Shown here: positions 4,669 through 31,996 of the stretch, one piece after another
Numbering within the stretch: the stretch's first letter is position 1
How the letters are laid out: each line of letters starts with the position of its first letter
Virus record (IMG/VR): IMGVR_UViG_3300042556_000729
Location: 1-42,951 of that record
DNA from: a virus
Reading direction: 5' to 3' (one strand)
Length of the DNA: 42,951 nt
Translations under genes and position numbers: made by a program
The notes under the pieces: generated by a model
Databases searched by the model: none
What the model saw: the letters and a program-made list of their open reading frames with translations, nothing else
Told to the model about the DNA's origin: nothing

Positions 4669-6387
4669 ATGGATGAACTCAAGGACTTCCGCAACTTCGT
4701 CTTCATGCAGTGGCAGACCTTGGGGCTGCCCAACCCGGCACCGATCCAGTACGACGTGGCCGAGTTCATCCAGACCGGCCCCAGCCGAAGAATGATCCAA
4801 GCCATGCGTGGCTTCGGCAAGTCCTACATGACCGCCGGGTACGCCGCTTGGCGGCTGATGCACAAGCCCGACATGACCATCATGTGCCTGAGCGCGGTGC
4901 AGAACCGGGCCCGTGAGTTCATCCGGTTGACCCGAAGACTGGTCGAGGAAATGGAGTGTCTGAAGCATCTCAAGCCCGGCATGTGGGACCGGGACGGGGC
5001 CGACCGGTTCGACGTCGGCTGCCGTACGGTGACGAGCAAGGATCCCTCTGTTGCGGCTTACGGCATCAAGGCCATGGTCACGGGTGCCCACGTGGACCTG
5101 ATCATCTGTGATGACGTCGAGATCATCGAGAACTCCGGGACCATCGAGGCACGTGATACCCTGTACAACAAGCTGATGGAGCTTGAGAACGTCCTGAACC
5201 CCGGCGGGGAGATCGTGTATCTCGGGACTCCACAGACGGAAGAATCCGTCTACAACAAGCTGGCCAAGCACTATGAGTGCAAACGGTGGCCCGCCCGTGT
5301 CCCCAGTCCCGACAACGAACTGGCCCATCGCTACCTGGCCCCGTATGTCCATGACCTGATGTCGGCAGGATCAGTCAATCTTCCGACGTACCCCGAGTAC
5401 TACCCCGAGGAGATACTGGGCGAGCGTGAGGCGATCATGGGTCCGTCCATGTTCGCACTGCAGATGCTGCTGGATACCACGCTGGCAGACCAAGATCGGT
5501 ATCCCCTGAAGTTATCGGATCTTGTCGTGACCGACTGCATCGGCCACATGGGGCCACGGCAGGTCATGTGGGGTACCCAAGCTCCGCTGCAGATCGAATC
5601 CCCCGGATTGGGTCGGGACCGGTTCTACGGCCCGGCTTGGCTCGACAAGGAGTGGGCGGACTTCGAGGATACCGTCATGTACGTCGATCCCTCGGGACGA
5701 GGTACGGACGAGACCGGCTATGCCGTAGCTCGACTGCTCAACGGGACGATCTTCATCCCCGAGACCGGTGGCTTCGCGGGTGGGCATGAACCCGATGTAC
5801 TGAAGCGGTTGGCCGAGGTGGCCGCGAAGCACGGCGTAAGACGCATCGTCTGCGAATCGAACTTCGGCGACGGCATGTTCACCAAGCTGCTGCAGCCGGT
5901 GGTCGCCCTGACCTGTACGTTGGGCGTGGCCGTCGAGGAAGTCCGGTCAACCGGCCAGAAGGAACGACGGATCTTGGAGATCCTAGAACCCGTGGTCGCC
6001 AACCATCGGCTGGTCATCGACCCCAAGGTGGCCAACGATACCACCCTGATGCACCAACTGACCCGGCTGACGCGGGAGCGTGGCTCGCTGGCCCACGATG
6101 ACCGGATCGAGGCACTGTCGGGGGCGGTGGGACTGTTCAGGGATCAGCTGCAGGTCGATCCCCAGTCCCGGAAGAAACGTCAGGATCAGGTTGAACTCGA
6201 GAAGATGGTCAAGGAATGGGATCGCGAAGCGTCGGGAAAGCAGAAGTCCGGTCGGTTGATCTTCCCGGTGACGGCTGGGATCGTCCCACGGGCCCGTGGC
6301 GGGCTTCTGGGGCGTTCCTCGGGCTGGGGGGTATCCAGGCCGCCCAAGCAGCCGGGAAGCCGTCCTAGGCGGTTTGGCGGGCTGTAG
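4669..6387 (+). CDS. terL: Terminase large subunit (gp19-like packaging ATPase/nuclease)
   Basis: 572 residues, close to T7 gp19 (586). The ATPase motifs are present: Walker A-like RGFGKSY at residues 47-53 and Walker B LIICDDVE at 144-151. The nuclease half carries VMYVDPSGRG with Asp340 as a likely metal ligand, followed by the acidic segments expected for an RNase H-like fold. The protein powers DNA entry into the procapsid and cuts concatemers. The C-terminus is rich in Gly/Arg/Pro. No obvious ribosome site precedes the ATG, and the gene follows the hairpin at 4628-4663. It is the last gene of the rightward late block before the control region. Confidence 0.95.
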   Translation: MDELKDFRNFVFMQWQTLGLPNPAPIQYDVAEFIQTGPSRRMIQAMRGFGKSYMTAGYAAWRLMHKPDMTIMCLSAVQNRAREFIRLTRRLVEEMECLKHLKPGMWDRDGADRFDVGCRTVTSKDPSVAAYGIKAMVTGAHVDLIICDDVEIIENSGTIEARDTLYNKLMELENVLNPGGEIVYLGTPQTEESVYNKLAKHYECKRWPARVPSPDNELAHRYLAPYVHDLMSAGSVNLPTYPEYYPEEILGEREAIMGPSMFALQMLLDTTLADQDRYPLKLSDLVVTDCIGHMGPRQVMWGTQAPLQIESPGLGRDRFYGPAWLDKEWADFEDTVMYVDPSGRGTDETGYAVARLLNGTIFIPETGGFAGGHEPDVLKRLAEVAAKHGVRRIVCESNFGDGMFTKLLQPVVALTCTLGVAVEEVRSTGQKERRILEILEPVVANHRLVIDPKVANDTTLMHQLTRLTRERGSLAHDDRIEALSGAVGLFRDQLQVDPQSRKKRQDQVELEKMVKEWDREASGKQKSGRLIFPVTAGIVPRARGGLLGRSSGWGVSRPPKQPGSRPRRFGGL

Positions 6388-6655
6388 CGAGAAATCGACT
6401 TGGGGGTCGGAAATTAGCGGAGGGGGTTTCCCCGCGTCCGCGAGGCCGCGACCCCCCGTGCCCCCACCCCGCCCGCGTGGGCGGCCGATGTCCGGTCAAG
6501 CGGGCCAATCGTCGGCCGTAGCCTAGGCTACAGGTCGGCCGTCGTCGGGTCGGACCTGTTTCACTGTGAAACACCCCACCGAATAACGATATAGAATATC
6601 CTAGCGTTTCCACCTGGTGGAGAGGGAAAGCGTAGGAAAGTGTAAGCATAAGAAA
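6388..6655. other. Non-coding stretch downstream of terL
   Basis: I find no convincing gene here. It holds a perfect 14-bp palindrome GTAGCCTAGGCTAC (6518-6531), the first parS-like site (6557-6573) and an odd palindrome TCCACC-T-GGTGGA (6609-6621). T7-like phages usually place their terminal repeats and early control region between terL and the early genes, so the physical genome ends may lie in or near this stretch. No sequence here proves that. Confidence 0.5.
6557..6573. promoter_or_regulatory. parS-like 17-bp palindrome, copy 1
   Basis: TGTTTCAC-T-GTGAAACA: two 8-base arms in perfect inverted repeat around one central base. The arms equal the half-sites of the bacterial chromosomal parS consensus TGTTTCACGTGAAACA, with one base added at the centre. 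It lies in the intergenic region after terL. The one-base loop makes a DNA-binding protein site likelier than an RNA hairpin. Confidence 0.75.
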
Positions 6656-6683
6656 GCCCCGCATACCTTGCGATATGCGGGGC
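6647..6683 (-). terminator. Rho-independent terminator of the minus-strand gene
   Basis: On the minus strand, GCCCCGCATA and TATGCGGGGC (plus-strand 6656-6665 and 6674-6683) form a perfect 10-bp stem with an 8-base loop. A T-rich tail (TTTCTTAT, plus-strand 6648-6655) follows immediately. It sits 24 bases past the stop codon of the leftward gene, exactly where a terminator is expected, and would also insulate terL from leftward transcription. Confidence 0.85.
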
Positions 6684-6706
6684 GAGTTTATTCCGACTAG
6701 GTTAGG

Positions 6707-7186
6707 TCACTGGCCCGCGTCGTCGTCCCCGTCGTCGTCGACGACGGTCAGCGCCGCGGCGATGTCCCTCGCCTCTTCGAGGACCGCGTCAATCTCCGAC
6801 GGGTCCACCTTCGCGAGGATGTCCGCGATGCGGGCAGCGGGAGACTTGGCGTTACGCCCGCCCTTGCCCTTGCCCTTCGGGCCCTTCCGGGAGTCGCGGA
6901 AGGCCCGCTCGTTCCCGGAGTTGCCTGCGAGCAGCCAGTCACCAAAGGCGAGCAGTCCGCGAATCCGGTCCTTCCCGATCCCTGCAGTCTCGCCGATCGC
7001 CGCCGACTCCTCCTTCGGAACACGAATCTTTCCCTTGCCCTTGGAAGGGAAGAAAGCGGCGAGCGCCTTTCCGAAGGTAGCGGAAGCATCCTCGACACCC
7101 TCAGCCGCGATCCTGTAAGCAGCCGCAGCCGCATCGACCGCAGCCCGCGTCACCTTCGCCACCTTGACAATCCTACGCTTGGACAT
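6707..7186 (-). CDS. Unknown leftward protein with basic middle and acidic tail
   Basis: 159 residues; the only gene I support on the minus strand. It has its own expression signals: a sigma70-type promoter (7262-7289), GGAAGGA seven bases before the ATG, and a strong terminator after the stop. The N-terminus is Ala-rich and helical (about residues 10-45). Two Lys/Gly-rich patches (around 49-57 and 104-113) look nucleic-acid-binding, and residues about 60-85 (GETAGIGKDRIRGLL) could form a helix-turn-helix-like pair. The C-terminus is strongly acidic (Asp-rich, residues about 148-159). I recognise no family. Its divergent position beside the early promoter suggests a DNA-binding regulator or an early host-directed protein; both are inference. 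Confidence 0.75.
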   Translation of the reverse strand: MSKRRIVKVAKVTRAAVDAAAAAYRIAAEGVEDASATFGKALAAFFPSKGKGKIRVPKEESAAIGETAGIGKDRIRGLLAFGDWLLAGNSGNERAFRDSRKGPKGKGKGGRNAKSPAARIADILAKVDPSEIDAVLEEARDIAAALTVVDDDGDDDAGQ

Positions 7187-7261
7187 CTTGAATCCTTCCG
7201 GGCCTCGCCCGGTTCGGTCCCGTCGCGTCCGATCCCAACACGGGACCAGACCGACAACGGG

Positions 7262-7289
7262 AGTTTACCACACTCCGAAGGGGAGTCAA
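7262..7289 (-). promoter_or_regulatory. Sigma70-type promoter for the minus-strand gene
   Basis: Read on the minus strand, TTGACT (plus 7284-7289) is followed after 16 bases by TAAACT (plus 7262-7267). Both boxes are close to consensus, and the pair lies about 75 bases upstream of the leftward ATG at 7186. It diverges from the strong rightward promoter at 7578. Confidence 0.65.
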
Positions 7290-7329
7290 GACCTCTACAG
7301 AAGATTCCCGAAGATTATTCGGACGCTAT

Positions 7330-7394
<65 letters not shown>

Positions 7395-7399
7395 CAACA

Positions 7400-7416
7400 T
7401 GTTTCACCGTGAAACA
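7400..7416. promoter_or_regulatory. parS-like 17-bp palindrome, copy 2
   Basis: TGTTTCAC-C-GTGAAACA, directly after the CGGCTC repeat and between the divergent promoters. Same arms as the other four copies. Confidence 0.75.
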
Positions 7417-7470
7417 CCCTGGCCCTCGACCCGCCACCGACCTGGCTAGCCGCCACGCCGCCGGCGTCTT

Positions 7471-7519
7471 ATGCGTAATGCGTAATGCGTAATGCGTAAT
7501 GCGTAATGCGTAATGCGTA
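7471..7519. repeat. Heptanucleotide tandem repeat ATGCGTA x7
   Basis: Seven perfect copies of ATGCGTA end about 60 bases upstream of the -35 box of the early promoter, next to a very A/T-rich run (7539-7563). Short tandem heptamers beside an A/T-rich run can be replication iterons or activator sites. They also resemble the heptameric short tandem repeats described in some bacterial genomes. The sequence alone does not decide. Confidence 0.95.
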
Positions 7520-7538
7520 GCGACCAACTTCACCGGAA

Positions 7539-7606
7539 CTATTTAAAAAATATTTTTGAAAATGTGTGTGAAGTAACTTGACAATCAATCCGAAATATGG
7601 TATACT
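7539..7606 (+). promoter_or_regulatory. Strong early host-type (sigma70) promoter with A/T-rich upstream element
   Basis: TTGACA (7578-7583) and TATACT (7601-7606) are separated by the ideal 17 bases, and TGG before the -10 box adds an extended -10 element. The A/T-rich run at 7539-7563 lies where an UP element would contact the alpha subunits. This is the best bacterial promoter I see in the window. It points into the early region, so host RNA polymerase would use it right after DNA entry, like the T7 A promoters. Start of transcription is predicted near 7613. Confidence 0.88.
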
Positions 7607-7663
7607 GACGCATGTCAGTGGATCATTGACAAGTCGTAGGTCTGCCTGCCCCACCGGGGAGCG

Positions 7664-7680
7664 TGTTTCACCGTGAAACA
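7664..7680. promoter_or_regulatory. parS-like 17-bp palindrome, copy 3
   Basis: TGTTTCAC-C-GTGAAACA about 50 bases after the predicted early start site, followed by TGTTCC, a partial further half-site. Confidence 0.75.
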
Positions 7681-8094
7681 TGTTCCAGCAAAGAGGGCTA
7701 GGATAACGAGCGAGAGTCGCCGGGAATGACAAGTCCCCGCACCTATCGAAAGGTAGGTATTGCCAACGACCACGAGCGTCCGATCGAAGGTTAGATTAGG
7801 CGAAAGCCGAAAGCGACCGGGTCCGGCGTGGTCCAGTAGCGTGGCGGGAAACCGCGATGATCGCAGATTGTCCGAAAGGCTAAAGGGCGTTTCGGGGAGC
7901 CATCCCTACGCGAATAACATATACCCTCATGGACTGTCGTCGTTCGTGCCGACAGCGGACCCGCATGGGTCGGGGTATCGGCGGATATGCTCTGGTCGCT
8001 TGCCACGGCCACCGTATCCGTATTAGTACGATCAACCGTTCGCAACTTAGATACAACGCCGGTGTACGCTTGACTGCGTACATCGGCATTCACT

Positions 8095-8111
8095 TGTTTC
8101 ACTGTGAAACA
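8095..8111. promoter_or_regulatory. parS-like 17-bp palindrome, copy 4
   Basis: TGTTTCAC-T-GTGAAACA, followed directly by TGTTTC so that a second, overlapping half-site is present (GAAACATGTTTC). It lies near the end of the leader RNA. Confidence 0.75.
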
Positions 8112-8147
8112 TGTTTCGGTTCGGTGTTTGACATGTCGAACACCAAT

Positions 8148-8170
8148 GCCGCACAGCGGCAGAAAGTAGG
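8148..8170 (+). promoter_or_regulatory. Hairpin plus ribosome-site module, copy 1
   Basis: A GCCGC-ACA-GCGGC hairpin is followed at once by AGAAAGTAGG, which carries the ribosome site of the gene at 8176. Almost the same module stands before the gene at 8606, so it is a duplicated 5' element of the two first early genes. It may be an mRNA stabiliser, a processing site or a translational control element. Confidence 0.6.
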
Positions 8171-8175
8171 ATGCA

Positions 8176-8490
8176 ATGACGATGACTCGCTACACCTGGG
8201 CCGTCAAGGTCCACGGAATCGGTAATCCCATCAGTCTGGGATTCTGCAGCACGCACCTGTTCACCACCGAAGCCGCAGCCATCGCTGCGGTGGACCGCTA
8301 CATGCGGGCGGCAGAGGAGCAGGGGTACATCACCAAGGAAGTTCTTCCGACCGAACGTTCTTTCGTGGCTCACGGCCATAACGGTACGCTGCGTGTCCAC
8401 ATCTCCGTCGATCGGTGGACGCAGGTGATCGACCGCCCGTACATCCCGTTTCACATCGACGAGACCCTCGACGAGAAGCGGGACGCCTGA
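8176..8490 (+). CDS. Small early protein of unknown function
   Basis: 104 residues, the first gene downstream of the strong early promoter. The ATG is preceded by TAGGA and the repeated hairpin module. A second in-frame ATG lies at codon 3. The sequence is a compact mix of short beta-like and helical segments (an Ala-rich helix near residues 33-50) without membrane segments or a motif I recognise. It is followed by a parS-like palindrome and a strong terminator, so it is a single-gene unit. First-expressed T7-like genes often act against host defence or metabolism (T7 gene 0.3 position), but nothing in this sequence shows such an activity. Confidence 0.75.
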   Translation: MTMTRYTWAVKVHGIGNPISLGFCSTHLFTTEAAAIAAVDRYMRAAEEQGYITKEVLPTERSFVAHGHNGTLRVHISVDRWTQVIDRPYIPFHIDETLDEKRDA

Positions 8491-8492
8491 CC

Positions 8493-8509
8493 TGTTTCAC
8501 CGTGAAACA
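8493..8509. promoter_or_regulatory. parS-like 17-bp palindrome, copy 5
   Basis: TGTTTCAC-C-GTGAAACA starting two bases after the stop codon of the 8176 gene and three bases before the terminator stem. Confidence 0.75.
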
Positions 8510-8512
8510 CCC

Positions 8513-8546
8513 GGCCCGTATCACCGACAGGTGCTACGGGCCTTTT
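8513..8546 (+). terminator. Rho-independent terminator after the first early gene
   Basis: GGCCCGTA (8513-8520) pairs perfectly with TACGGGCC (8535-8542), followed by TTTT (8543-8546). It would stop or attenuate transcription from the 7578 promoter after the leader RNA and the 104-residue gene. Confidence 0.8.
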
Positions 8547-8566
8547 GCATACCGCTGTGGTATGCT
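8547..8566 (+). promoter_or_regulatory. Possible extended -10 promoter after the terminator
   Basis: TGGTATGCT (8558-8566) is an extended -10 motif placed just after the terminator, with no good -35 box. It lies in the right arm of a 7-bp hairpin (GCATACC/GGTATGC, 8547-8565). A start near 8573 would give an mRNA beginning at the hairpin module before the 8606 gene. Some fresh promoter is likely here, because the terminator precedes a 4-kb operon. Confidence 0.45.
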
Positions 8567-8576
8567 TCCTGTCCGT

Positions 8577-8600
8577 GCCGCATTGCGGCAGAAAGGTAGG
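8577..8600 (+). promoter_or_regulatory. Hairpin plus ribosome-site module, copy 2
   Basis: GCCGC-ATT-GCGGC followed by AGAAAGGTAGG, five bases before the ATG at 8606. It matches the module at 8148-8170 with only loop changes and a one-base insertion. Confidence 0.6.
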
Positions 8601-8605
8601 CCAGC

Positions 8606-10387
8606 ATGGACCCTAACAAGGTCTGTCGTGAATGGTCGTGCAACATGGTTCGCACGATCCCAGAAGCGAAGCAGGTTATCGTGACCGAGTTCGTCGACTC
8701 GGTCGGCCCGAAGGTCCACACCTTCAGGCTGAACGCGGACCAGTGGCACAACATCACCGCCCGGCATTACGATGCGATCGAGCGGCTCGAGGAGTACGCC
8801 CGGACCCGTGACTACGACATGGTCAAGTCGGATCTCCGCTGGTATGCGTCGGCAGGTAACGATTCTGTCAACGGCATTGACGAGTCGTGCATCAAGTTCA
8901 AGCGGATGACTCCGTCGCAGTGGTACCTGAAGCACTGCTATGCGGAGTTCACCTCGCCCGATGCTGCGTCCGTCAAGGCCGCTGCCTTTGCGGAAGCATG
9001 GGGTGCGGCATGGGGTACGATCGAGCAGCCCGAGTTCGTGTTCGGGTCCAGTGAGATCGTGGACATCTATCGACAATGCGGACGGCAGGGCAGTCTGACG
9101 TCGTGCATGACGGACCGTGGACGCGAGGACTTTGTGCAGATCTACGGCACGTCCAAGCGTTGCTGCCTTGCGGTGCTTCATGACAACGGCGAGATCGTGG
9201 AACGTGCCCTGATGTTCCTGCCCGACATCTACCCCGAGGATACGCCGCCCGGTCCGGGGTGGTATGTCGGACGGATCTACCCCGGCGACATGCTGCTGTC
9301 CCGGTCCCGCATGGGTCCGTGGTTCGCGGCCAACGGGGTCAAGTCCCTGCGGCCCGTGACCGATCATCTTGTCGTGTCGGGGTTCAAGTTGCTTGACGAG
9401 ATGTACCTGCCCTATCTGGACATCGGGTGCTTCGCATGGACCGGTGCAGGTGAGCCCGGTACACCGGTGGTCTGGCACCACAACATGCCAAGGGACCTGC
9501 GATGCGGCAATCACTACCCCGGAACATGGGGCAACGACTATCAGGGCGGCCCGATTGCCACCCCGCCGCATACATGCTGCGAATGTGGCGAAGCCGTTGA
9601 CGAGGACGAGGTCGTGTACCCCACGGACAGCGATCCGTGGTGCCGGGATTGTTGCGACAATCGGTTCGCGTGGTGCGAAGTGTCGGGTGGCTATGTCAAC
9701 CACGGGGACATGGTGCGTGTGTACGACTGCTGCTCGTACGACCATGTCGGTTACGATGTCGAGTACTTCGAAGCCCGACGCACCTACAACGGCTTCCGCA
9801 TCCGCTATGTCCGGGTCTTGCTGGCCAACGACGAGAACGCCTTCGTTCCCGAGTGCGAGGTGGTGGACGACCGATGGGTTCCCGACATGCTGGAGAACGG
9901 GTGGATCAGGGTGGCCGAACTGAACTTCAGCCACCGCACCGCATGGCGGCCGCATGTCCTGTCTACCAGTGAGGATGACTGGGGTTGGGAACATCCCGAA
10001 GATTCCTCCGTCGTGCAGGTCTACACCGGCGACCTGCGGGAGCCCGAAGATCCCGATGCGGTCATGCCTGTCCGCATGGTGGGGTACAAGATCGTTCAGG
10101 TCCATGACAAGATGCGGGCAATGGGCCTGCGGTTCGTGTCACTCGGCGGTACCCGGATCGGCGTGGCCGACGCATCGGGCAACATGTATGACCTGCTGCC
10201 CATCCTGTCGGAGAGCGCCCAGTCGTACCCCGGTTCGGGGGAGCGGCTGAACTACGACAACATCGATGTCCGTAACGATGACCACATGCGTGGCCTCGAC
10301 GGCTGCTGGATCATGGGATGGGAGATCATCCCGCAGAACAACAACACCAACACGGCGGACACCGCCGAGACTGCGAGCAACCTGTGA
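8606..10387 (+). CDS. Large Cys-rich early protein of unknown function
   Basis: 593 residues, the largest early gene. The ATG follows AGGTAGG. The middle part holds a dense cysteine region (about residues 322-375) with CCEC, then CRDCC, then single and paired cysteines with a histidine nearby. The spacing suggests one or two zinc-binding modules. The flanking regions are acidic, rich in Tyr/Trp, and without membrane segments. The last ~20 residues are an Asn/Thr/Ala-rich tail. The stop overlaps the GTG of the next gene, so it heads the early operon 8606-12773. The place resembles the T7 gene 0.7 region (host transcription shut-off), but I see no kinase motifs. No family recognised. Confidence 0.85.
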   Translation: MDPNKVCREWSCNMVRTIPEAKQVIVTEFVDSVGPKVHTFRLNADQWHNITARHYDAIERLEEYARTRDYDMVKSDLRWYASAGNDSVNGIDESCIKFKRMTPSQWYLKHCYAEFTSPDAASVKAAAFAEAWGAAWGTIEQPEFVFGSSEIVDIYRQCGRQGSLTSCMTDRGREDFVQIYGTSKRCCLAVLHDNGEIVERALMFLPDIYPEDTPPGPGWYVGRIYPGDMLLSRSRMGPWFAANGVKSLRPVTDHLVVSGFKLLDEMYLPYLDIGCFAWTGAGEPGTPVVWHHNMPRDLRCGNHYPGTWGNDYQGGPIATPPHTCCECGEAVDEDEVVYPTDSDPWCRDCCDNRFAWCEVSGGYVNHGDMVRVYDCCSYDHVGYDVEYFEARRTYNGFRIRYVRVLLANDENAFVPECEVVDDRWVPDMLENGWIRVAELNFSHRTAWRPHVLSTSEDDWGWEHPEDSSVVQVYTGDLREPEDPDAVMPVRMVGYKIVQVHDKMRAMGLRFVSLGGTRIGVADASGNMYDLLPILSESAQSYPGSGERLNYDNIDVRNDDHMRGLDGCWIMGWEIIPQNNNTNTADTAETASNL

Positions 10388-11517
10388 GTAACTGGCTTCC
10401 CTCATACCGACTCTTCACCGAGACGCTGATGCGTCTGTGTCGGTGGACCACGCCGCACGGCTATGAGCACATGCTCATCCCGATGCTGCCCACCCCACCG
10501 CACGGTGCGGCACCTGGCACCGACCCGGCATACGCAGGCGGTACCTTCCACCTGTGTGCCGAGACGGGTAACTACTGGGTCGTAATCCCCGGCCACGGCG
10601 ATGACATCATGTGGACCTGTCACCTCGATACCGTGGGCATCAAGCCGGAGCCGGTCACGCTCGTGCAACGCGGACACATGCTGCACAGTGACGGCACCAC
10701 CGTGCTCGGTGCCGATGACAAGGCAGGCGTGGCCATCCTGTGCATGATGATCCGTGCCGGCGTGCCGGGTACCTATGCGTTCTTTGTCGGCGAGGAGTCC
10801 GGCTGCATCGGCAGCAAGGATGCCGCCGACGAGTACCGGATGCACCATGACCGTGCGTTCCGTGCCTGCATCTCGCTCGACCGCAAGGGCAGCAGCGATG
10901 TCATCACGCACCAGTTGGGCGAGCGTTGCTGCTCCGATGCATGGGCCAAGGCACTGGCCGATGGCATCAATCGGTACATGGTCAACGGTTCGTTCTCTCC
11001 CTGTTCGCAGGGCGTGTTCACCGACAGTGCGTCGTACATGGACTGCATCGACCAGTGCACCAACCTGTCCGTCGGGTACCACGGGCAGCACGGCAACTCA
11101 GAGCACATCGACATGCAACATGCGTACGAGTTGTCGCTTGCACTCATCCGCATGTGTCGCAGCGACGGCGTGCCTGACCTGCCCCGTGACCGTGCCTCGG
11201 AGGAGGCAGACGAGTCGTGGATGTCAGGCTACGACTACCTGCGGTACCGTGGTTCGTCCAAGCGTTGGTGGTACAGGTCGGCGAGCAAGGCTGACGACGG
11301 GGTCAGTGCCGAGTTTCACCAGACCACCGACAAGATCAATGCTCTGGAGGCCAAGGTGAATGAGATGCTCGAGCGATGGGAGGAACTGCCCGAGGGCGAC
11401 GAGCGTGACGACATCGAGATCAAGATCAATGACACCGAGTGGGACATCGAGGAACTGAAGAGATCACTTGCCGAAGAGGGATCAAAGCGTTATGATTCCA
11501 GTCGTTTCAACTTCTGA
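10384..11517 (+). CDS. M20/M28/M42-type metallopeptidase or amidohydrolase
   Basis: 377 residues from a GTG that overlaps the upstream stop (GTGA). The residues typical of co-catalytic zinc exopeptidases appear in the right order: HLDTVG (His80, Asp82), GADDKAGVA (Asp111/112), GEESGCIGS (Glu137, Glu138), SLDRKG (Asp166) and NSEHIDM (His241). The family removes residues from peptides or hydrolyses N-acyl amino acids in the cytoplasm; the substrate here is unknown. The C-terminal ~110 residues are extra: a Trp/Arg/Tyr-rich stretch and then a charged coiled-coil-like tail. Such an enzyme is not part of the usual T7 early set. It may recycle peptides, disarm a host peptide factor, or act as a different hydrolase of the same fold. 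Confidence 0.8.
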   Translation: MSNWLPSYRLFTETLMRLCRWTTPHGYEHMLIPMLPTPPHGAAPGTDPAYAGGTFHLCAETGNYWVVIPGHGDDIMWTCHLDTVGIKPEPVTLVQRGHMLHSDGTTVLGADDKAGVAILCMMIRAGVPGTYAFFVGEESGCIGSKDAADEYRMHHDRAFRACISLDRKGSSDVITHQLGERCCSDAWAKALADGINRYMVNGSFSPCSQGVFTDSASYMDCIDQCTNLSVGYHGQHGNSEHIDMQHAYELSLALIRMCRSDGVPDLPRDRASEEADESWMSGYDYLRYRGSSKRWWYRSASKADDGVSAEFHQTTDKINALEAKVNEMLERWEELPEGDERDDIEIKINDTEWDIEELKRSLAEEGSKRYDSSRFNF

Positions 11518-11530
11518 ATGTGAGGACACA

Positions 11531-11806
11531 ATGACAGAGATCAGCATCGACAACCGACCGACCAAGATCGTGCGTACCTACCGCGTCACCTACAAGGGCA
11601 TCCATGTGGATGTCCGCATCACGGACGACAGGCCCATCGCACCCGGCAGCAAGTACGAACCCGGCGAGCGTGCCGTGTACCCGGACATGCCGCTGTCCGC
11701 AAGCGAGTGGGCCGAACTGAATGCGTGGCTGAACGGGACGGCGGCGATCGCCGATCCCGACACCCTGCTGACCATGACCAACGCCAAGAACTGGAGCCGC
11801 CAATGA
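11531..11806 (+). CDS. Small early protein of unknown function
   Basis: 91 residues. The ATG at 11531 is chosen because GAGGA stands five bases upstream; the longer frame from 11468 lies inside the peptidase gene and uses a TTG. The protein opens with beta-like segments (RTYRVTYKGIHVDVRIT) and ends with a SASEWAELNAWL helix. No family recognised. It overlaps the next gene by four bases (ATGA). Confidence 0.75.
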   Translation: MTEISIDNRPTKIVRTYRVTYKGIHVDVRITDDRPIAPGSKYEPGERAVYPDMPLSASEWAELNAWLNGTAAIADPDTLLTMTNAKNWSRQ

Positions 11807-12159
11807 GAGCCAAGTGGTCCTATGACCAGTACGAGTTCACCAACATGCGTTACATGGGTTCCGTCGAGGGTACCCTGGACTTCCGGTGGGAGCCCGGCTG
11901 TCCGGGTTCCCGTGACACGCCCGCCGAGGGCGGGTACCCCGACGACCTCGAGCCCGCCATCAGCGACCTGACCCTGATCGATCTGGACAACGGCCTCGAG
12001 TATGTACTGGTGCGTGGCTACGAGATCGTGATCACCGAGATCAACGAGGTGAACACCGTGGACTTGATGGTCGAGATCATCAAGCACATGCAGCCTGCGT
12101 TCGAGGAGATCGCACAGGAACACATGGTCGATCGACTGTACGAGGTGCATGATGACTGA
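11803..12159 (+). CDS. Small acidic early protein of unknown function
   Basis: 118 residues. The ATG at 11803 overlaps the upstream stop and has GGAG seven bases before it. The sequence is acidic, with two beta-rich halves and a C-terminal helix (VDLMVEIIKHMQPAFEEI). No family recognised. The end overlaps the next gene by 11 bases, continuing the tightly packed early operon. Confidence 0.75.
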   Translation: MRAKWSYDQYEFTNMRYMGSVEGTLDFRWEPGCPGSRDTPAEGGYPDDLEPAISDLTLIDLDNGLEYVLVRGYEIVITEINEVNTVDLMVEIIKHMQPAFEEIAQEHMVDRLYEVHDD

Positions 12160-12403
12160 ACAGGATCATCTTCGTATGGTGGCTGAGTCATACGCCAACC
12201 TGCATGACCGGATCACCGTCCTGATGGGTGAGCGGGACAAGGCACTGGCCGAGCGTGACGATGCCAGACGCAAATGGTGCAATGATGAGGCCACTCGACT
12301 GACCTCACTTGCCGTGGTTGCGGGCATGTCGGACCACGTGTATACAGGATCGGATATCGCAAGGATGCATGGCTGGGACTGCTTCAAGGAGAACAACCAA
12401 TGA
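12149..12403 (+). CDS. Small early coiled-coil protein, paralog A
   Basis: 84 residues starting with two adjacent ATG codons (12149, 12152). A charged helix (about residues 20-45) contains ERDDARRKWC, and the C-terminus contains IARMHGWD. The same two elements recur in the next gene, so the two are tandem relatives. Function unknown. The stop overlaps the next ATG (ATGA). Confidence 0.7.
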   Translation: MMTEQDHLRMVAESYANLHDRITVLMGERDKALAERDDARRKWCNDEATRLTSLAVVAGMSDHVYTGSDIARMHGWDCFKENNQ

Positions 12404-12567
12404 CCAATGACATCAAGCAACTGACCAAGGAACGCGACGACGCACGCATCCAGTTCTGCATGATGCAGGTGGAGAACGACATGTACAACAAGGTCATGTC
12501 AACCCCCGAGCAAGTGGCTTCGGAATACGGGTGGGACTATCTCATTCCCCTGATGGAGAACAAGTGA
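12400..12567 (+). CDS. Very small early protein, paralog B
   Basis: 55 residues. ATG at 12400 overlaps the upstream stop, with GGAG nine bases before it. It contains ERDDARIQFC near the N-terminus and VASEYGWDYL near the C-terminus, which line up with the preceding gene. It looks like a shortened duplicate of it. Function unknown. Confidence 0.65.
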   Translation: MTNDIKQLTKERDDARIQFCMMQVENDMYNKVMSTPEQVASEYGWDYLIPLMENK

Positions 12568-12773
12568 ACAAGAAGGAACGACCCAACGTGGAGAAGATCT
12601 CCGTGATCGAAGCATACCGCATTCGGTGGACCGATGGCGAGTCGTGGCGTGTCGTCCGTGACATGACCAACGGAGGTGCATGGTCCGTCATGGACCCCCA
12701 AGGCAAGGCCCTGAGCAAGGGTGATCCCATGTGGGAGAAATGCATCAGGCTCGCAGCGGACGCAGGAAAGTGA
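12564..12773 (+). CDS. Small early protein of unknown function, last of the early operon
   Basis: 69 residues from a GTG at 12564 that overlaps the upstream stop; GGAG lies five bases before it. It has two short beta-hairpin-like segments (AYRIRWTDGESWRVVRDM and AWSVMDPQGKAL) and a basic C-terminus. No family recognised. A strong hairpin follows ten bases after the stop. Confidence 0.65.
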   Translation: MNKKERPNVEKISVIEAYRIRWTDGESWRVVRDMTNGGAWSVMDPQGKALSKGDPMWEKCIRLAADAGK

Positions 12774-12782
12774 TGGGCTGAT

Positions 12783-12819
12783 TTAGTACCGACTCTTGGA
12801 GAAACCAAGAGAGTACTAA
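12783..12819 (+). terminator. Strong hairpin after the early operon (terminator or RNase III-type processing site)
   Basis: TTAGTAC and CTCTTGG (12783-12789, 12793-12799) pair with CCAAGAG and GTACTAA (12805-12811, 12813-12819): 14 pairs with a small asymmetric internal loop and a five-base AGAAA loop. No T-run follows, so it is a poor intrinsic terminator. T7 early mRNAs are cut by host RNase III at hairpins between genes, and this would fit that role. Confidence 0.6.
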
Positions 12820-12824
12820 GAGCA

Positions 12825-12869
12825 GTACTTAGGGCTGATCTAGGTAGCACTTAGATCAGCCCTAAGTAC
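12825..12869. repeat. Perfect 18-bp inverted repeat
   Basis: GTACTTAGGGCTGATCTA (12825-12842) and TAGATCAGCCCTAAGTAC (12852-12869) are perfect reverse complements around a nine-base loop. As RNA it forms a very stable hairpin; as DNA it is a large dyad containing two CTGATCT elements in opposite orientation. No T-run follows. Confidence 0.85.
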
Positions 12870-12907
12870 CGGCTTAAGATCTGACCTACATCTGATCTTC
12901 AATCACC

Positions 12908-12916
12908 TGATATAAT
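12908..12916 (+). promoter_or_regulatory. Extended -10 promoter with consensus TATAAT
   Basis: TGATATAAT is a consensus extended -10 (TGn plus TATAAT). No good -35 box lies at the right distance. A start near 12922 would transcribe toward the RNA polymerase gene. Confidence 0.5.
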
Positions 12917-13017
12917 CCTCTACTTAGTAGCGCACTTAGATCAGTTCTTATCAGATGATCTGATATCATCATCTTAGTACCTGATCTTAGATCTGATCTA
13001 CAACCTGATCTAATGCC

Positions 13018-13059
13018 TTGACATACAGCACCTTGGCAGATCTAAGATCCGATCTTAGA
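13018..13059 (+). promoter_or_regulatory. Sigma70 promoter with overlapping operator upstream of the RNA polymerase gene
   Basis: TTGACA (13018-13023), 17 bases, then TCTAAG (13041-13046; four of six match the -10 consensus). The palindrome TCTAAGATC-C-GATCTTAGA (13041-13059) starts exactly at the -10 box and covers the predicted start site. A protein bound there would block host RNA polymerase. This is the closest promoter to the phage RNA polymerase gene (ATG 13128). Confidence 0.6.
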
Positions 13060-13127
13060 ATTGTCCCAAGTACCGCCTATGTACCGACCATTGATGTTTG
13101 GCGTCGTTCAAAACGGGGTGTCCGATA

Positions 13128-15458
13128 ATGAACAGTGACCTGTACTCCATCGAACAGAGCAACGAACTTGACGGTATCGAGCAGGGCGTCGCCCGGTATC
13201 GGTACATCGCATCGCAACGACGGTCGGTCCACAACACGCCCGAGCGGAAGATCATCGGCAAGGCCCTTGAACGCATGGTGCCTGCCATCGAGGCCGAGAA
13301 GCGTCGCATCCTCAAGGCCATGAAGAGTCGTGGTCGTCCGGGTACATGGTGGCCACCCTTCATGGTCATCTCGTCGGACAAGTTGGCGTTGATCACGCTG
13401 GCCGAGATGCTCGACTGGAGGGACGAGCGTAAGTCCACCTCGATCCAGATCGATGTGGCCTGTGGGGTACGCACCGAACTGATGTACGACGCCATCCGTG
13501 CTCACAACAAGGAACGGTTCGGGCAGACCGAGATCCGCAAGAAGAACTGGTCGGACCTCGAGATCAGGAAGATCTACAAGAAGGCCGGGATGAAGCCGAT
13601 CAAGTGGACCATCTCGGACAAGTTGCTGCTTGGCGGTGCCTTGGTACGCATCGCCGTGGACAGCACCAAGATGTTCAACCTGAGGTACTGCAAGACCCAT
13701 GGTCCCCAGCGTGAGGTACGCATCGAGCCCAAGCCCGAGGTGCTGGACGAACTGCTCAGCCAGCACTCGAACCTTGAGATCCTGAAGCCGGTGCTGCCGC
13801 CCATGCTGGTGCCTCCGGTGGACTGGACCACCGAGGGTACGGGCGGATACCTGTTCATCCAGAAGCCCCTCGTAAGAGACGCCTTCGGGAACCACGAGGT
13901 GGACTATGACATTCCCTCGATGCAGGTTCCGCTGGAAGCCCTGAACTACATCCAATCCACGCCATGGCGGATCAACGGGGCCGTGCTCGACATCATGCAA
14001 CGGCTGTGGTCCAACGGTGGCGGGGTGGCCGGGCTGCCTCCGGCGACCTCCGAGGCCGTCCCCAAGGGGGAGAAGCACGGGCGTGAGTTCTGGCGTCGCC
14101 GTGATCAGGACAACTCACGGAGATTCTCGACCATCCGCACGCTGTCCATCGCCCACAAGTACCGTGATCAGGACATCTGGTTCCCCCATAACCTCGACTT
14201 CCGGGGCCGTGTGTACCCGTTGCCGTCGTACCTGCACCCCCAAGGCGATGACCTGTGCCGTGGGCTGCTGATGTTTAGCGAGACGCTGGCCTTGGGGAAG
14301 ACCGGCCTGTTCTCGCTGATGATCTCCTTGGCCAACAGTGCAGGCATGGACAAGATCTCGGTGGACGACCGGATCAAGTGGACCATGGACAACTGGGTCA
14401 AGCACTATGCCAAGCGTTCGTTCGACCCCTATGAGGACAAGCGGTGGATGCAGTACGACGACCCCGTGCAGTTCGTCGCCGCCATGCTTGACCTGAACGC
14501 GGCCCTGCTGTCGGGTTCTCCCGAGTCCCACATGTCATCGCTCTGCGTGTACATTGACGGCAGCAACAACGGACTGCAGCACCTGAGTGCGTTGACCCGT
14601 GACGAGGTGGGCGGCGAGGCGGTCAACCTGGTGCCCAGCCCCGTCCCGCAGGACATGTACGACCGGGTGGCCAAGGCCGTCAACGAACTGATCCGCCGGG
14701 ACGCAGCGACCAAGCCCGCCAAGAGCGAGCATGACACCCCCGAGCCGTGGACCGTCCTGAAGGATCAAGTCACCCGCAAGATGGTCAAGCGATGCACCCT
14801 TGCGTACCCCTACGGGATCTCCGGGTTCGGCATGAAGTTGGCCCTGATTCAGGACGGCGACCTCGATGACATGGCCGACAACACCCGGACCATCGCCGGG
14901 TATCTCGCACGCTCCATCCGTGACGCCATTGGTAACGTCGTGGTCAAGTCAGCCGAACTGATGCGTTGGCTTCAGGATGCCACGGAACGCATGGCCGAGC
15001 AGGGACAACCCATCTCATGGACAGCACCGCAGGGATTCCCCGTGTGCCAAGCCTATCTGATCAAGGACCGCAGGGAGATCAAGACCGCACTGCACCGGTG
15101 CTCGGTGCTGGTGCCCGCCAAGGACCGGGCATTGGACGTCGCCGCCCAGATCCGTGGGATCGTGGCCAACCTGATCCACTCGTACGATGCGGCCCACCTG
15201 ATGGCGGTGGCATTGAACTTCGAGGAACGCCAGTGGAAACACTCGGCATGGATCCACGATTCTATCGGCGTCCATGCCGGTCGTGTCGATATCCTGCACA
15301 GGGTGGTGCGTGACGAGTTCATCGCCATGCACGAGAACCCGTTGCTGCATGACTTCGCCGCTTCGCTTCGCAAGCGGATACCGGACTTGCCCGATCCTCC
15401 GGTTATGGGTAAACTGAACCTTGAGGACATCCGAAAATCCAAGTACTTCTTCACATGA
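13128..15458 (+). CDS. Single-subunit DNA-directed RNA polymerase, T7 gp1 family
   Basis: 776 residues (T7 RNAP 883). All hallmarks are present: LDFRGRVYPLPSY with PQGDD; motif A DGSNNGLQHLSAL with catalytic Asp477; motif B KRCTLAYPYG with Lys554 and Tyr562 at the T7 Lys631/Tyr639 spacing; motif C HDSIG with Asp711. The C-terminus ends in Phe-Phe-Thr. The enzyme transcribes the middle and late phage genes. I chose the ATG at 13128 (GGGGTG seven bases upstream, product begins Met-Asn-Ser-Asp) over the TTG at 13098. It overlaps the next gene by four bases and follows the dyad-rich region that probably controls it. Confidence 0.96.
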   Translation: MNSDLYSIEQSNELDGIEQGVARYRYIASQRRSVHNTPERKIIGKALERMVPAIEAEKRRILKAMKSRGRPGTWWPPFMVISSDKLALITLAEMLDWRDERKSTSIQIDVACGVRTELMYDAIRAHNKERFGQTEIRKKNWSDLEIRKIYKKAGMKPIKWTISDKLLLGGALVRIAVDSTKMFNLRYCKTHGPQREVRIEPKPEVLDELLSQHSNLEILKPVLPPMLVPPVDWTTEGTGGYLFIQKPLVRDAFGNHEVDYDIPSMQVPLEALNYIQSTPWRINGAVLDIMQRLWSNGGGVAGLPPATSEAVPKGEKHGREFWRRRDQDNSRRFSTIRTLSIAHKYRDQDIWFPHNLDFRGRVYPLPSYLHPQGDDLCRGLLMFSETLALGKTGLFSLMISLANSAGMDKISVDDRIKWTMDNWVKHYAKRSFDPYEDKRWMQYDDPVQFVAAMLDLNAALLSGSPESHMSSLCVYIDGSNNGLQHLSALTRDEVGGEAVNLVPSPVPQDMYDRVAKAVNELIRRDAATKPAKSEHDTPEPWTVLKDQVTRKMVKRCTLAYPYGISGFGMKLALIQDGDLDDMADNTRTIAGYLARSIRDAIGNVVVKSAELMRWLQDATERMAEQGQPISWTAPQGFPVCQAYLIKDRREIKTALHRCSVLVPAKDRALDVAAQIRGIVANLIHSYDAAHLMAVALNFEERQWKHSAWIHDSIGVHAGRVDILHRVVRDEFIAMHENPLLHDFAASLRKRIPDLPDPPVMGKLNLEDIRKSKYFFT

Positions 15459-15718
15459 CCAAGCAAGCACAAGTAACTGCCAACTACCCGGCCTTGATGA
15501 CGTTCGTCAAGACCCGGATCAGCGTCCCATATCAAGACCGTCGTGATGTCGTGCACACCGCCATCGCACGCTGCCTGGCTTCCGACAACCCGGAGTCGTG
15601 TACACTGTCGTACATGTTCCGGGCGTTGGTCAGCACGGTCCAGAACCACCGCCGCACGGAGAACAGGAATGCACGAAAGATCAGAAAATTTGGAACTCTT
15701 GGGGACGTTGTACGATAG
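15455..15718 (+). CDS. Sigma factor region 2-like protein
   Basis: 87 residues; the ATG overlaps the RNA polymerase stop (ATGA). The core (DRRDVVHTAIARCLAS, then LSYMFRALVSTVQNHRR) matches the helix pattern of ECF sigma region 2, which binds the beta' clamp and the -10 element. No region 4 follows in this frame; a region 4-like sequence lies in the +1 frame (next entry). The pair could be a two-protein sigma factor, one product made by +1 frameshifting, or a recently broken gene. Both frames overlap for 50 bases. Region 2 similarity is by pattern only. Confidence 0.65.
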   Translation: MTKQAQVTANYPALMTFVKTRISVPYQDRRDVVHTAIARCLASDNPESCTLSYMFRALVSTVQNHRRTENRNARKIRKFGTLGDVVR

Positions 15719-15935
15719 ACTTGAGAACGAGAGCCTGAAGGAAGCCCTGTACCTGACCGTGATCAAGGACATGACCGTCAAGGAAGCGGCCGCCATCGTC
15801 GGCGTGCCGGTGACGACGATGACCCGCCGCAAGGAACGCGGCCGACTGCTACTCAAGGAGCGATATGAGGACGCTTGTAATCGGGGATCTGCACCTGCCA
15901 GCCGTTCATCCCAAGTACATGAACTTCATCCGTGA
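15669..15935 (+). CDS. Sigma factor region 4-like (HTH) protein, +1 frame
   Basis: 88 residues from an ATG at 15669 with GGAG nine bases upstream. Residues about 11-62 (LGTLYDRLENESLKEALYL, then MTVKEAAAIVGVPVTTMTR and a basic RRKERGRLLLKE helix) follow the sigma region 4 helix-turn-helix pattern that contacts the -35 element. The last 71 bases overlap the phosphoesterase gene in another frame, so the true functional end may be near the ATG at 15865. The frame could also be entered by a +1 shift from the region 2 gene. Confidence 0.6.
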   Translation: MHERSENLELLGTLYDRLENESLKEALYLTVIKDMTVKEAAAIVGVPVTTMTRRKERGRLLLKERYEDACNRGSAPASRSSQVHELHP

Positions 15936-17725: not shown

Positions 17726-18147
17726 TGATCAAGTTACGCCTGCCCGGTGATCCGGTACCCGCCGCCCGACCCAAGGTCAGTCGCTGGGGAACGTATTATC
17801 CGAAGACATACCGGGTGTTCCGTACGGCCATGGAGCTGGTGGTCCGCAAGTTGTTTGCGGGCCGCCAGCCCATGGTCGGGCCGCTTGTGGTGATCCTGAA
17901 CGTGTTCGTCCGCAAGCCCAAGACCAGCAAGTTGCTGTATCCCATAGGTGACGTGGACAACTACGCCAAGGCCTACCTCGATTCGCTCAACGGACACGCA
18001 TGGCACGACGACAAGCAGGTCATCTCCCTGACCGTAACCAAGGACTTCACGGATGAGACGCACGGATGGGCAGACCTACAGATCCAAGCCGCTAAGGAAA
18101 CAGCCCTGCCCAAGGTGCAGGGCAAGCGGACGAGACGAAACCGGTGA
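17725..18147 (+). CDS. rusA: RusA-like Holliday junction resolvase
   Basis: 140 residues. The RusA signature is present: GDVDNYAKAYLDSL (Asp76, Asp78, Asn79, Lys82, Asp86) followed by WHDDKQV (Asp95, Asp96) and a basic C-terminus. RusA enzymes cut four-way junctions with metal ions at a DNA-crossing dimer. In T7 this map position holds endonuclease I (gp3), which does the same job with an unrelated fold. The start overlaps the SSB stop by one base. The last 95 bases overlap the primase-helicase gene in another frame, which is long for a functional overlap. Confidence 0.88.
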   Translation: MIKLRLPGDPVPAARPKVSRWGTYYPKTYRVFRTAMELVVRKLFAGRQPMVGPLVVILNVFVRKPKTSKLLYPIGDVDNYAKAYLDSLNGHAWHDDKQVISLTVTKDFTDETHGWADLQIQAAKETALPKVQGKRTRRNR

Positions 18148-19801
18148 CAACCTGGTCGTCTTTGACGACAACCACACCCACTGCTTTGCATGTGGGTACC
18201 ACACCAACGGAAACAAGATGACCGAGACCGTTCAACCAACGACGACTCAAGACCGATTCGACCACACTCCCGTGCCGTGCGACCTGCCGCACCGCAACAT
18301 CGGTGCCGACACCTGCCGCAAGTTCGGGTATGGCATGGACGGGGATGTCGAGGTTGCCCCGTACCGCAAGTCCGGTACGGTCGTCGCCCACAAGATCCGA
18401 TACCCCGGCAAGCGGTTCTCGTGCGACGGGAACATGCGTGGCGTCGAGCTGTTCGGCCAGCACCTGTGGCGTGCTGGCGGCAAGCGACTGACCATCACCG
18501 AGGGCGAGATCGACTGCCTGACGATCTCGCAGGCACAGGACAACCGGTGGCCCGTGGTGTCCGTCCCGAACGGTGCAGCCGGTGCGGTCCAAGCGATCAA
18601 GGACAACCTTGATTTCGTCACCGCGTTCGAGGAGATCGTGCTGGCGTTCGACATGGACGAGGCCGGTCGCGCTGCGGCCAAGGCGGTGGCCGAGATCCTG
18701 CCGCCGGGCCGGGCTCGCATCGCGTCGTTCCCGAGGAAGGACGCCAACGAGATGTGGCTGAACTCCGAAGGCAAGGCGATGATCGACTGCCTGTGGCAGG
18801 CTGCACATTACCACCCCGATGGCATCCTGCATGTCTCGGACATCGCCGCAGGCAGCCGCAAGAACTGCGACGTGTGGGAATACCCGTGGCATTCGATGAC
18901 CGACTTCCTGATCGGGCAGAGGTCTGGCGAGATCGTGCTGTGGACCTCTGGAACCGGCTCGGGCAAGAGCACGATCGTCAGGGAACTGGCCATGCACCAC
19001 CTGAACAGCAAGCGCCCCGTAGGGATGATCATGCTGGAGGAGTCGCCTGAGGAGACGGTGGACGACCTCGTGTCCCTGCTGGTCGGCAAGCCGGTGCGGA
19101 AGATCCGTGCGACCGAAGCCCTGAACCGGCTGCGGGTCAGCACTGGAAGACCCACCATCGACACCGATTACTTGGACGAGTCCCAGTACGAGCAGGCACG
19201 GGAGACGATCAACCGGCTGCCGCTGTTCGTGTACGACCACATGGGCAGCCACGACTACGGCAACCTGCTCAGTCGCATGGAGTACATGGCGGTCTCCTTG
19301 GGATGTCGGGTGATCATCCTCGACCACATCACCGCAGCCGTGACCGGCATGATGGCCGCCGACGAGCCGGGTGGTGAGCGGCTGGTCATTGACGAGTTCA
19401 TGAAGCAGATGCGTTCACTCGTGGAGCGGACAGGCGTCCACCTCGACGTCATCTCCCAGTTGCGAAAGACCTCGCAAGGCAAGGGCTACGAGGAGGGAGC
19501 CCGGATTACCCTGCAGGATCTCCGTGGGTCGGGCTCGCTCGGGTCGGTGCCGAACATCGTCATCGCCATGGAGCGTGACCGGCAGGACCCCGAGCCGATC
19601 AAGGCCAACACCTCGGTGATCCGGGTGCTGAAGAACCGGTTCACCGGCAGGACCGGGATCGCTACGGCCTTGCACTACGAGGCCGCATCGGGTAAACTAA
19701 ACGAGATCGGATTCGCGGTTGACGCGGACGGCGAGATCATGTTCGACCCGGACAACAAGCAGCAGAGTGCGAACCTCGAGGCACTGCAGGAGATCTTCTG
19801 A
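18053..19801 (+). CDS. Primase-helicase, T7 gp4 family
   Basis: 582 residues (T7 gp4A 566). The N-terminal zinc site is CPRC (Cys19, Cys22) with CFAC (Cys44, Cys47); it reads the primase template. A TOPRIM core follows (ITEGEIDCL, then LAFDMDEAGR). The helicase half has Walker A GTGSGKST (300-307, Lys305), LEESPEE, VIILDHI as Walker B, and the DLRGSGSL loop. The start at 18053 is required to include the zinc finger and has AAGGA nine bases upstream, although it lies within rusA. The hexamer unwinds the fork and lays primers for the polymerase. Confidence 0.95.
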   Translation: MRRTDGQTYRSKPLRKQPCPRCRASGRDETGDNLVVFDDNHTHCFACGYHTNGNKMTETVQPTTTQDRFDHTPVPCDLPHRNIGADTCRKFGYGMDGDVEVAPYRKSGTVVAHKIRYPGKRFSCDGNMRGVELFGQHLWRAGGKRLTITEGEIDCLTISQAQDNRWPVVSVPNGAAGAVQAIKDNLDFVTAFEEIVLAFDMDEAGRAAAKAVAEILPPGRARIASFPRKDANEMWLNSEGKAMIDCLWQAAHYHPDGILHVSDIAAGSRKNCDVWEYPWHSMTDFLIGQRSGEIVLWTSGTGSGKSTIVRELAMHHLNSKRPVGMIMLEESPEETVDDLVSLLVGKPVRKIRATEALNRLRVSTGRPTIDTDYLDESQYEQARETINRLPLFVYDHMGSHDYGNLLSRMEYMAVSLGCRVIILDHITAAVTGMMAADEPGGERLVIDEFMKQMRSLVERTGVHLDVISQLRKTSQGKGYEEGARITLQDLRGSGSLGSVPNIVIAMERDRQDPEPIKANTSVIRVLKNRFTGRTGIATALHYEAASGKLNEIGFAVDADGEIMFDPDNKQQSANLEALQEIF

Positions 19802-20517: not shown

Positions 20518-20737
20518 CAACTTCCCCAGTTACACTGCCTATAACGCCAAGCAACTTCTTCAGCAGGTCGATACCCTGAAGGCCGCGATCAAGGAACTGC
20601 AGGTCCAAGCCGGTTACGGCAAGGAACTGACCGACCAGATCAACGCCCTGAACCTGCACGTCAAGGAACTCAAGGATGCCGTCGCCGACCTCGATCGTCG
20701 CGTCGAGATCCTCGAGTCCGTGAAGAAGGGCAAGTGA
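20501..20737 (+). CDS. Small coiled-coil protein of unknown function
   Basis: 78 residues. From about residue 16 to the end it is a continuous charged helix with heptad-like Leu/Val spacing (LKAAIKEL, INALNLHVKELKDAV, LDRRVEILE), so it should form a coiled coil, possibly a dimer. No motif or membrane segment. It sits between thyX and DNA polymerase and may be a small partner of the replication proteins, but the sequence does not show which. Confidence 0.7.
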   Translation: MIEIPDNFPSYTAYNAKQLLQQVDTLKAAIKELQVQAGYGKELTDQINALNLHVKELKDAVADLDRRVEILESVKKGK

Positions 20738-20739
20738 CC

Positions 20740-31903: not shown

Positions 31904-31934
31904 TTTCCAAGCGGACCCCGCAGACCCCGATGTT

Positions 31935-31959
31935 CGGGACAATCAGGTACGGGACAATC
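31935..31959 (+). promoter_or_regulatory. Direct repeat CGGGACAATC x2 upstream of the capsid gene
   Basis: Two copies (31935-31944 and 31950-31959) 15 bases apart lie between the terminator and the capsid start. Because the terminator would cut off upstream transcription, this is the most likely place for a phage RNA polymerase promoter (T7 phi10 position). No T7 consensus is visible, so the link is positional only. Confidence 0.35.
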
Positions 31960-31996
31960 TAGCAAGGAGCGTGTAATCCCCTTTTAGGAAACAACA

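Follow-up and report, generated by a model that had tools for sequence, protein, structure and literature searches.

A 12-bp-periodic CTTAG array before the RNA polymerase gene of a T7-like phage resembles the short repeats of T7 and SP6 genome ends and origins

The gap between the last early gene and the RNA polymerase (RNAP) gene of a near-complete T7-like phage genome (IMG/VR record IMGVR_UViG_3300042556_000729; 42,951 nt, analyzed over its whole length and referred to here as the window) is occupied over its entire 354 bp by a repeat array that, judging from sequence comparison, appears to be a pre-RNAP variant of the short repeats of the T7/SP6 end and origin kind. The informative unit of this array is the word CTTAG/CTAAG at a spacing of approximately 12 bp, i.e., about one helical turn, and not GATC, which the original prediction had emphasized. 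The array is quite possibly a combined promoter and origin region of this kind.

Genome organization and setting of the array

The positions of the array and of the principal genes are listed in Table 1. The 12-bp tandem repeat GGCGGTGCTGGA is found at both ends of the window (1-110 and 42815-42951), inside the coding region of the gene at the gp16 position, and probably broke a circular assembly. The best DNA-level resemblance to any phage collection record is one 74-bp stretch, the RNAP is approximately 30% identical to those of named phages, and no RNAP relatives were found among genome contigs, which hence gave no clue to the host. The segment 12811-12950 is the most structured 140-bp segment of the genome (z -9.7).

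Several other elements were observed outside the array. A (CCGGCT)n run and the heptamer repeats TAATGCG/TAATTCG (7318-7540) adjoin the strong host-type promoter that follows TerL. Five perfect 17-bp palindromes, TGTTTCAC[T/C]GTGAAACA, are located at 6557, 7400, 7664, 8095, and 8493 in the interval between TerL and the early genes; we take them to be chromosomal parS (TGTTTCACGTGAAACA) plus one additional central base, and they are missing from a sister phage (one lineage, represented by IMG/VR contigs L002 and L003, which are identical across the array). The early region contains an M28-type peptidase gene (10318-11517), homologues of which (approximately 47%) lie at similar places in two cousins (L089 and L096). 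Directly after the RNAP gene, a sigma70-like factor is apparently split into two overlapping ORFs (15455-15935); it is split in the sister too, and in L089 and L096 it is a single upstream gene. The word GGGACAAT has three copies genome-wide, two before the major head gene (31930-31960) and a third in minus orientation (13060); it is a possible regulatory word, with this last copy at the right end of the array.

Table 1. Positions of the array, its elements, and the principal genes in the window
Feature	Position	Strand	Remarks
TerL	4669-6387		
Strong host-type promoter	7578-7606		TTGACA-17-TATACT
Whole array	12774-13127		Intergenic; AT-rich, 43% GC vs 58% GC for the genome
Short hairpin	12782-12819	+	About 15 pairs around CTCTTGGagaaaCCAAGAG
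CTTAG/CTAAG pair 1	12816-12832		12816 reverse, 12828 forward; 12 bp
Long inverted repeat	12825-12869		Perfect 18-bp arms 12825-12842/12852-12869
CTTAG/CTAAG pair 2	12850-12866		12850 forward, 12862 reverse; 12 bp
CTTAAG	12873-12878		Site of the 12-bp insertion in the sister
Extended -10-like TGATATAAT	12908-12916	+	Consensus match only; weaker repeats at 12961, 13006
CTTAG/CTAAG pair 3	12923-12939	+	12923, 12935; 12 bp, CTTAGTAGCGCACTTAG
Odd-centered palindrome	12949-12965		
CTTAG/CTAAG pair 4	12973-12990	+	12973, 12986; 13 bp
CTGATCT triplet	12981-13011	+	12981, 12993, 13005; exact 12-bp spacing
Sigma70-type promoter-like site	13033-13061	+	TTGGCA-17-TAGAAT; 10 of 12; kept in the sister
Odd-centered palindrome, 19 bp	13041-13059		TCTAAGATCcGATCTTAGA
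CTTAG/CTAAG pair 5	13042-13058		13042 reverse, 13054 forward; 12 bp; core of the TCTAAGATCcGATCTTAGA palindrome
T7-type single-subunit RNAP	13128-15458	+	phrog_414, E 1.5e-177
Region-2-like half of sigma70-like factor	15455-15718		
Region-4-like half of sigma70-like factor	about 15666-15935		Sigma70_r4_2, 27.0 bits
Primase-helicase	18053-19801		
DNA polymerase	20734-22398		
Major head protein	31997-33037		

Repeats and dyads of the array

The repeats and dyads of the original prediction were found again. Recounting gave 13 GATC sites within 218 bp (12837-13054) and seven CTGATCT words, two of them reversed (12853 and 12938) and five forward (12835, 12892, and the evenly spaced triplet). The inverted repeat extends to 21-bp arms at 95%, the hairpin contains about 15 pairs, vs the 14 claimed, and both odd-centered palindromes were located; the 19-bp palindrome occurs in IMG/VR in the two sister contigs only, and an Rfam search gave no match. 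The proposed comparison with shuffled sequence was made against 2000 dinucleotide-preserving shuffles of the array region itself, and the enrichment survives: the counts of GATC (13 observed vs 2.6 shuffled), CTGATCT/AGATCAG (7 vs 0.14), and repeated 8-mers (43 vs 3.2) were reached in 0/2000 shuffles, and for the longest perfect arm at short spacing (9 bp) the excess is marginal (32/2000). Since GATC is frequent across the genome (379 sites, one per 113 bp), its cluster is less striking than a 1-in-256 model implies; the densest 218-bp GATC segments of the genome are those of this array.

The word CTTAG/CTAAG was found 10 times in the array, compared with 1.06 times in the shuffled sequences (0/2000 dinucleotide shuffles reach this count), and these copies are half of the 20 in the genome. 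All 10 are arranged in five pairs with spacings of 12, 12, 12, 13, and 12 bp, the chance of which is about 1.5e-5 under a uniform placement model. The strongest period in the array is the self-similarity at lag 12 (z 4.9), which stems largely from CTTAG/CTAAG, a source that the original prediction missed; GATC is mostly a by-product of the CTTAGATC and CTGATC units. Counted as CT-W(1-3)-AG words, the cluster amounts to 8 per 160 bp vs 0.12 expected (E ~5e-10, Poisson model).

Conservation in the sister phage

The sister matches the window at approximately 97% from 12781 rightwards. The interval 6428-12781, i.e., its early region beginning shortly past TerL, is unrelated DNA between flanks that are approximately 96 to 97% identical, which suggests a cassette-like exchange, and the left edge of the array coincides exactly with the homology seam at 12781. 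Over 347 bp, the array is substituted at 6 positions, just 2 of them within the last 250 bp, and the RNAP gene has a pS of 5.5% and a pN of 0.4%; the array is thus under strong constraint and is more conserved than the synonymous sites of RNAP. All 10 CTTAG/CTAAG words are retained in the sister and one CTGATCT box is changed, which favors CTTAG over GATC as the retained unit. The sole indel is an in-phase insertion of 12 bp, i.e., one period, which creates, from CTTAAG, a further CTTAG/CTAAG pair with a spacing of 13 bp. The short hairpin is retained with one A-U to G-U change, and the long inverted repeat has one mismatch, which shortens its stem by one pair. The conservation anticipated in the original prediction is therefore found in the sister, and distant relatives share the word class and not the sequence.

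Promoter-like elements and RNA folding

The spacer of the sigma70-type promoter-like site is filled by the 19-bp palindrome. No phage promoter consensus was identified in the genome from repeated 22-mers or shared 9-mers, and the promoter-discovery word searches yielded only parS-like palindromes and tandem repeats. As RNA, the short hairpin folds with a z of -5.3, the segment 12820-12875 with -39.8 kcal/mol (z -10.9), and the whole array with a z of -6.4; the folding is equally strong on both strands, as expected from DNA dyads. The stem-loops at 12782-12819 and 12820-12875 stand in the RNAP leader, as in an RNase III site of the R1 type.

CT-W(1-3)-AG words in other T7-like genomes

Cousins were found via the primase-helicase (49 to 64% identical). 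An array before RNAP is absent in the nearest cousins whose upstream sequence is available (L089, L092, L094, L096, L098, and L110). In most of them (L089, L094, L096, L098, and L110) the RNAP start is overlapped by a gene for an endonuclease VII-like protein, which was not found in the window. L092 carries a CTATAG array directly after TerL. The pre-RNAP regions of approximately 100 further T7-like loci include many that are AT-rich and dyad-rich with related words, such as CCCTAAGGG (L213), CTTATAG (L245), ATCTAAAG (L194), and CCTAAGTACC/CCTTAG (L228), all of which fit the self-complementary class CT-W(1-3)-AG. In the 400 bp before RNAP of 101 regions, excluding the window and the sister, this class is enriched 2.97-fold, vs 1.07- to 1.56-fold for seven composition-matched classes, and the distances between its words show maxima at 10-13 and 24 bp. 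GATC reaches at most 4 per 300 bp in the other RNAP-upstream regions (n = 101), which the window and the sister alone exceed.

At the whole-genome level, 34 other genomes (26 IMG/VR contigs and 8 named phages) were searched. The densest CT-W-AG cluster lies before RNAP in 10 genomes, after TerL in 12, at a contig end, which in IMG/VR may be a prophage border rather than a physical end, in 3, and elsewhere in 9. The three zones make up about 10% of the sequence, yet they hold 25 of the 34 densest clusters; the seven composition-matched control classes have 4 to 9 of 34 in the zones and 25 to 30 elsewhere. An E<0.01 is attained by 19 clusters, 17 of them inside the zones, vs 0 to 1 for the control classes, and the pair distances peak at 12 (2.8-fold), 13 (2.1-fold), and 24 bp (2.1-fold), unlike those of the controls. 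The class was chosen with knowledge of the T7 left end and of several regions before RNAP, and the independence of these cases is hence incomplete; what was found in T3, in SP6, at the T7 origin, and at the T7 right end played no part in the choice.

The three densest clusters of T7 are at 174 (left repeats), 5840 (the phi1.1A/B primary origin, where the two promoter cores account for 2 of the 7 words), and 39576 (right repeats). Those of T3 are at 111 (left end), 5590 (beside the annotated rep_origin, 5682-5758), and 37785 (right end). SP6 (NC_004831) has CTTAG at 260, 272, 284, 296, and 308 of its left end, and its right end is clustered too.

Function of the array

Because CT-W-AG words mark the primary origins of T7 and T3 and adjoin the end promoters phiOL and phiOR, the array may well be a promoter and origin region in one. 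Transcription by the host polymerase, and perhaps also by that of the phage, would start at the array and yield the RNAP mRNA as well as primer transcripts for replication, and a protein reading the 12-bp repeats would load, melt, or regulate the site; an origin/promoter function and such a protein are what we infer as most likely. The original prediction of a phage replication origin thus gains comparative support from CT-W(1-3)-AG words at approximately 12 bp shared with T7, T3, and SP6, though not for its own reasons, GATC clusters and iterons. The third-position GC/AT skew does not switch at the array, and likewise does not switch at the known T7 origin.

With regard to the GATC cluster, a methylation-sensitive switch of the Dam/SeqA type would be suggested by 13 sites in 218 bp, a count that shuffling did not reproduce, and is nonetheless very improbable: the GATC sites follow from the CTTAGATC/CTGATC units, their density is not common to other pre-RNAP regions, and the sister alters one CTGATCT box. 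No DnaA box (TTWTNCACA, within one mismatch) was found in the array region, and scanning of a subset of the phage proteins revealed no Dam. The likeness to plasmid iterons also fails, since the unit is 5 to 7 bp with a 12-bp period in both directions, vs direct repeats of approximately 17 to 22 bp; an iteron origin of the plasmid type was rejected also because no Rep was found among the proteins scanned. An attP remnant was rejected as well, as no integrase was found among the upstream genes scanned and no tRNA was found; the relatives BB8, S2B, RHEph01, and jiawei have an integrase, unlike the window.

A regulator array that times RNAP expression, also raised in the original prediction, is possible in view of the sigma70-like elements and of the position of T3 promoter C/R1, and is not the reading that we favor. 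It would take the form of a phage or host protein on paired CTTAG/CTGATC half-sites that represses or activates host-type promoters. This operator model accounts for half-sites that are direct and inverted and one turn apart, for the promoter-like site with its palindrome-filled spacer, and for the extended -10-like repeats, and a sigma70 region-4-like helix-turn-helix protein encoded just after RNAP is in keeping with it; we consider it unlikely, however, because the word class is common to phages of very different hosts and marks genome ends without a nearby RNAP gene, which would not be expected of an operator specific to one lineage, and because no integrase or repressor was found among the upstream genes scanned. 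A MarR regulator of temperate T7-like phages has been proposed to repress RNAP via promoter-flanking sites upstream of the gene (PMC10134795); these proposed operators resemble the array in position and in a possible role in RNAP timing, whereas no integrase or MarR gene was seen in the window. The hairpins might instead serve the processing of the RNAP mRNA by RNase III or its stability, like R1 before gene 1 of T3/T7, and the strong folds of the whole array and the long hairpin, the retention of the short hairpin through a G-U pair, and the T3 annotation, which places promoter C and the R1 stem-loop immediately upstream of gene 1, are consistent with such a leader. It is distinctly unlikely, as both strands fold equally well, the long stem is one pair shorter in the sister, and RNA processing leaves the 12-bp period and the shared word class unexplained. 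A little more doubtful is a packaging element, in which the small terminase subunit would read the repeats as T7-type end repeats, with the physical genome end near the array. The closest sequence matches of the array are indeed end arrays (the SP6 left end, the T7 left and right repeats, and the array after TerL in BB8), and the homology with the sister breaks exactly at its left edge; on the other hand, the strong host-type promoter and the early genes that separate TerL from the array put the end near TerL, and the internal origin of T7/T3 also carries the CT-W-AG words.

Returning to the combined promoter and origin region, its broadest extension is tentative and rather doubtful: CT-W(1-3)-AG at 12 to 13 bp might serve T7-like phages as a general cis code, at ends, primary origins, and pre-RNAP regions, with one conserved reader protein, and the origin might lie before RNAP in many lineages, here included, which would couple polymerase expression to the start of replication. 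For this phage, the end/origin hypothesis takes the place of the methylation hypothesis, and the family gains one testable rule, namely, CT-W-AG every 12 to 13 bp at T7/T3 origins, at SP6 ends, and before RNAP.

Comparison with T7, T3, and SP6

In cluster density, in its spacing of 11 to 13 bp, and in its location beside RNAP, the array agrees with the short repeats of T7-like phages. The primary origin of T7/T3 likewise has a CT-W-AG cluster, the second densest there, with a spacing of approximately 10 to 12 bp, and adjoins the RNAP gene; it differs in that it lies after RNAP and has identified phage promoters, whereas the array lies before RNAP and, of the features of a T7-type primary origin, has the AT-rich stretch, with no phage promoter consensus found. 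In T3, promoter C and the RNase III site R1 place a host promoter and a stem-loop directly upstream of RNAP, as in the array, but the stem-loop before gene 1 is single and short and there is no repeat array. The CCTAAAG repeats at the left and right ends of T7, which are the SRL and SRR of the literature, belong to the CT-W(1-3)-AG class, are spaced by one turn (13 bp), and are AT-rich with adjacent promoters, as is the array; the word, one base in the spacing, the location, and the lack of long inverted repeats set them apart. We know of no settled function for these repeats, and our search of the open literature found no paper that treats the end repeats of T7 as a class. The SP6 left-end repeats run in one direction at a genome end, whereas the array has mixed orientation and long dyads and stands directly before RNAP; the SP6 ends and the array nevertheless share the word CTTAG, the 12-bp spacing, and a short non-coding stretch, and pair 3 of the array is of the same form.
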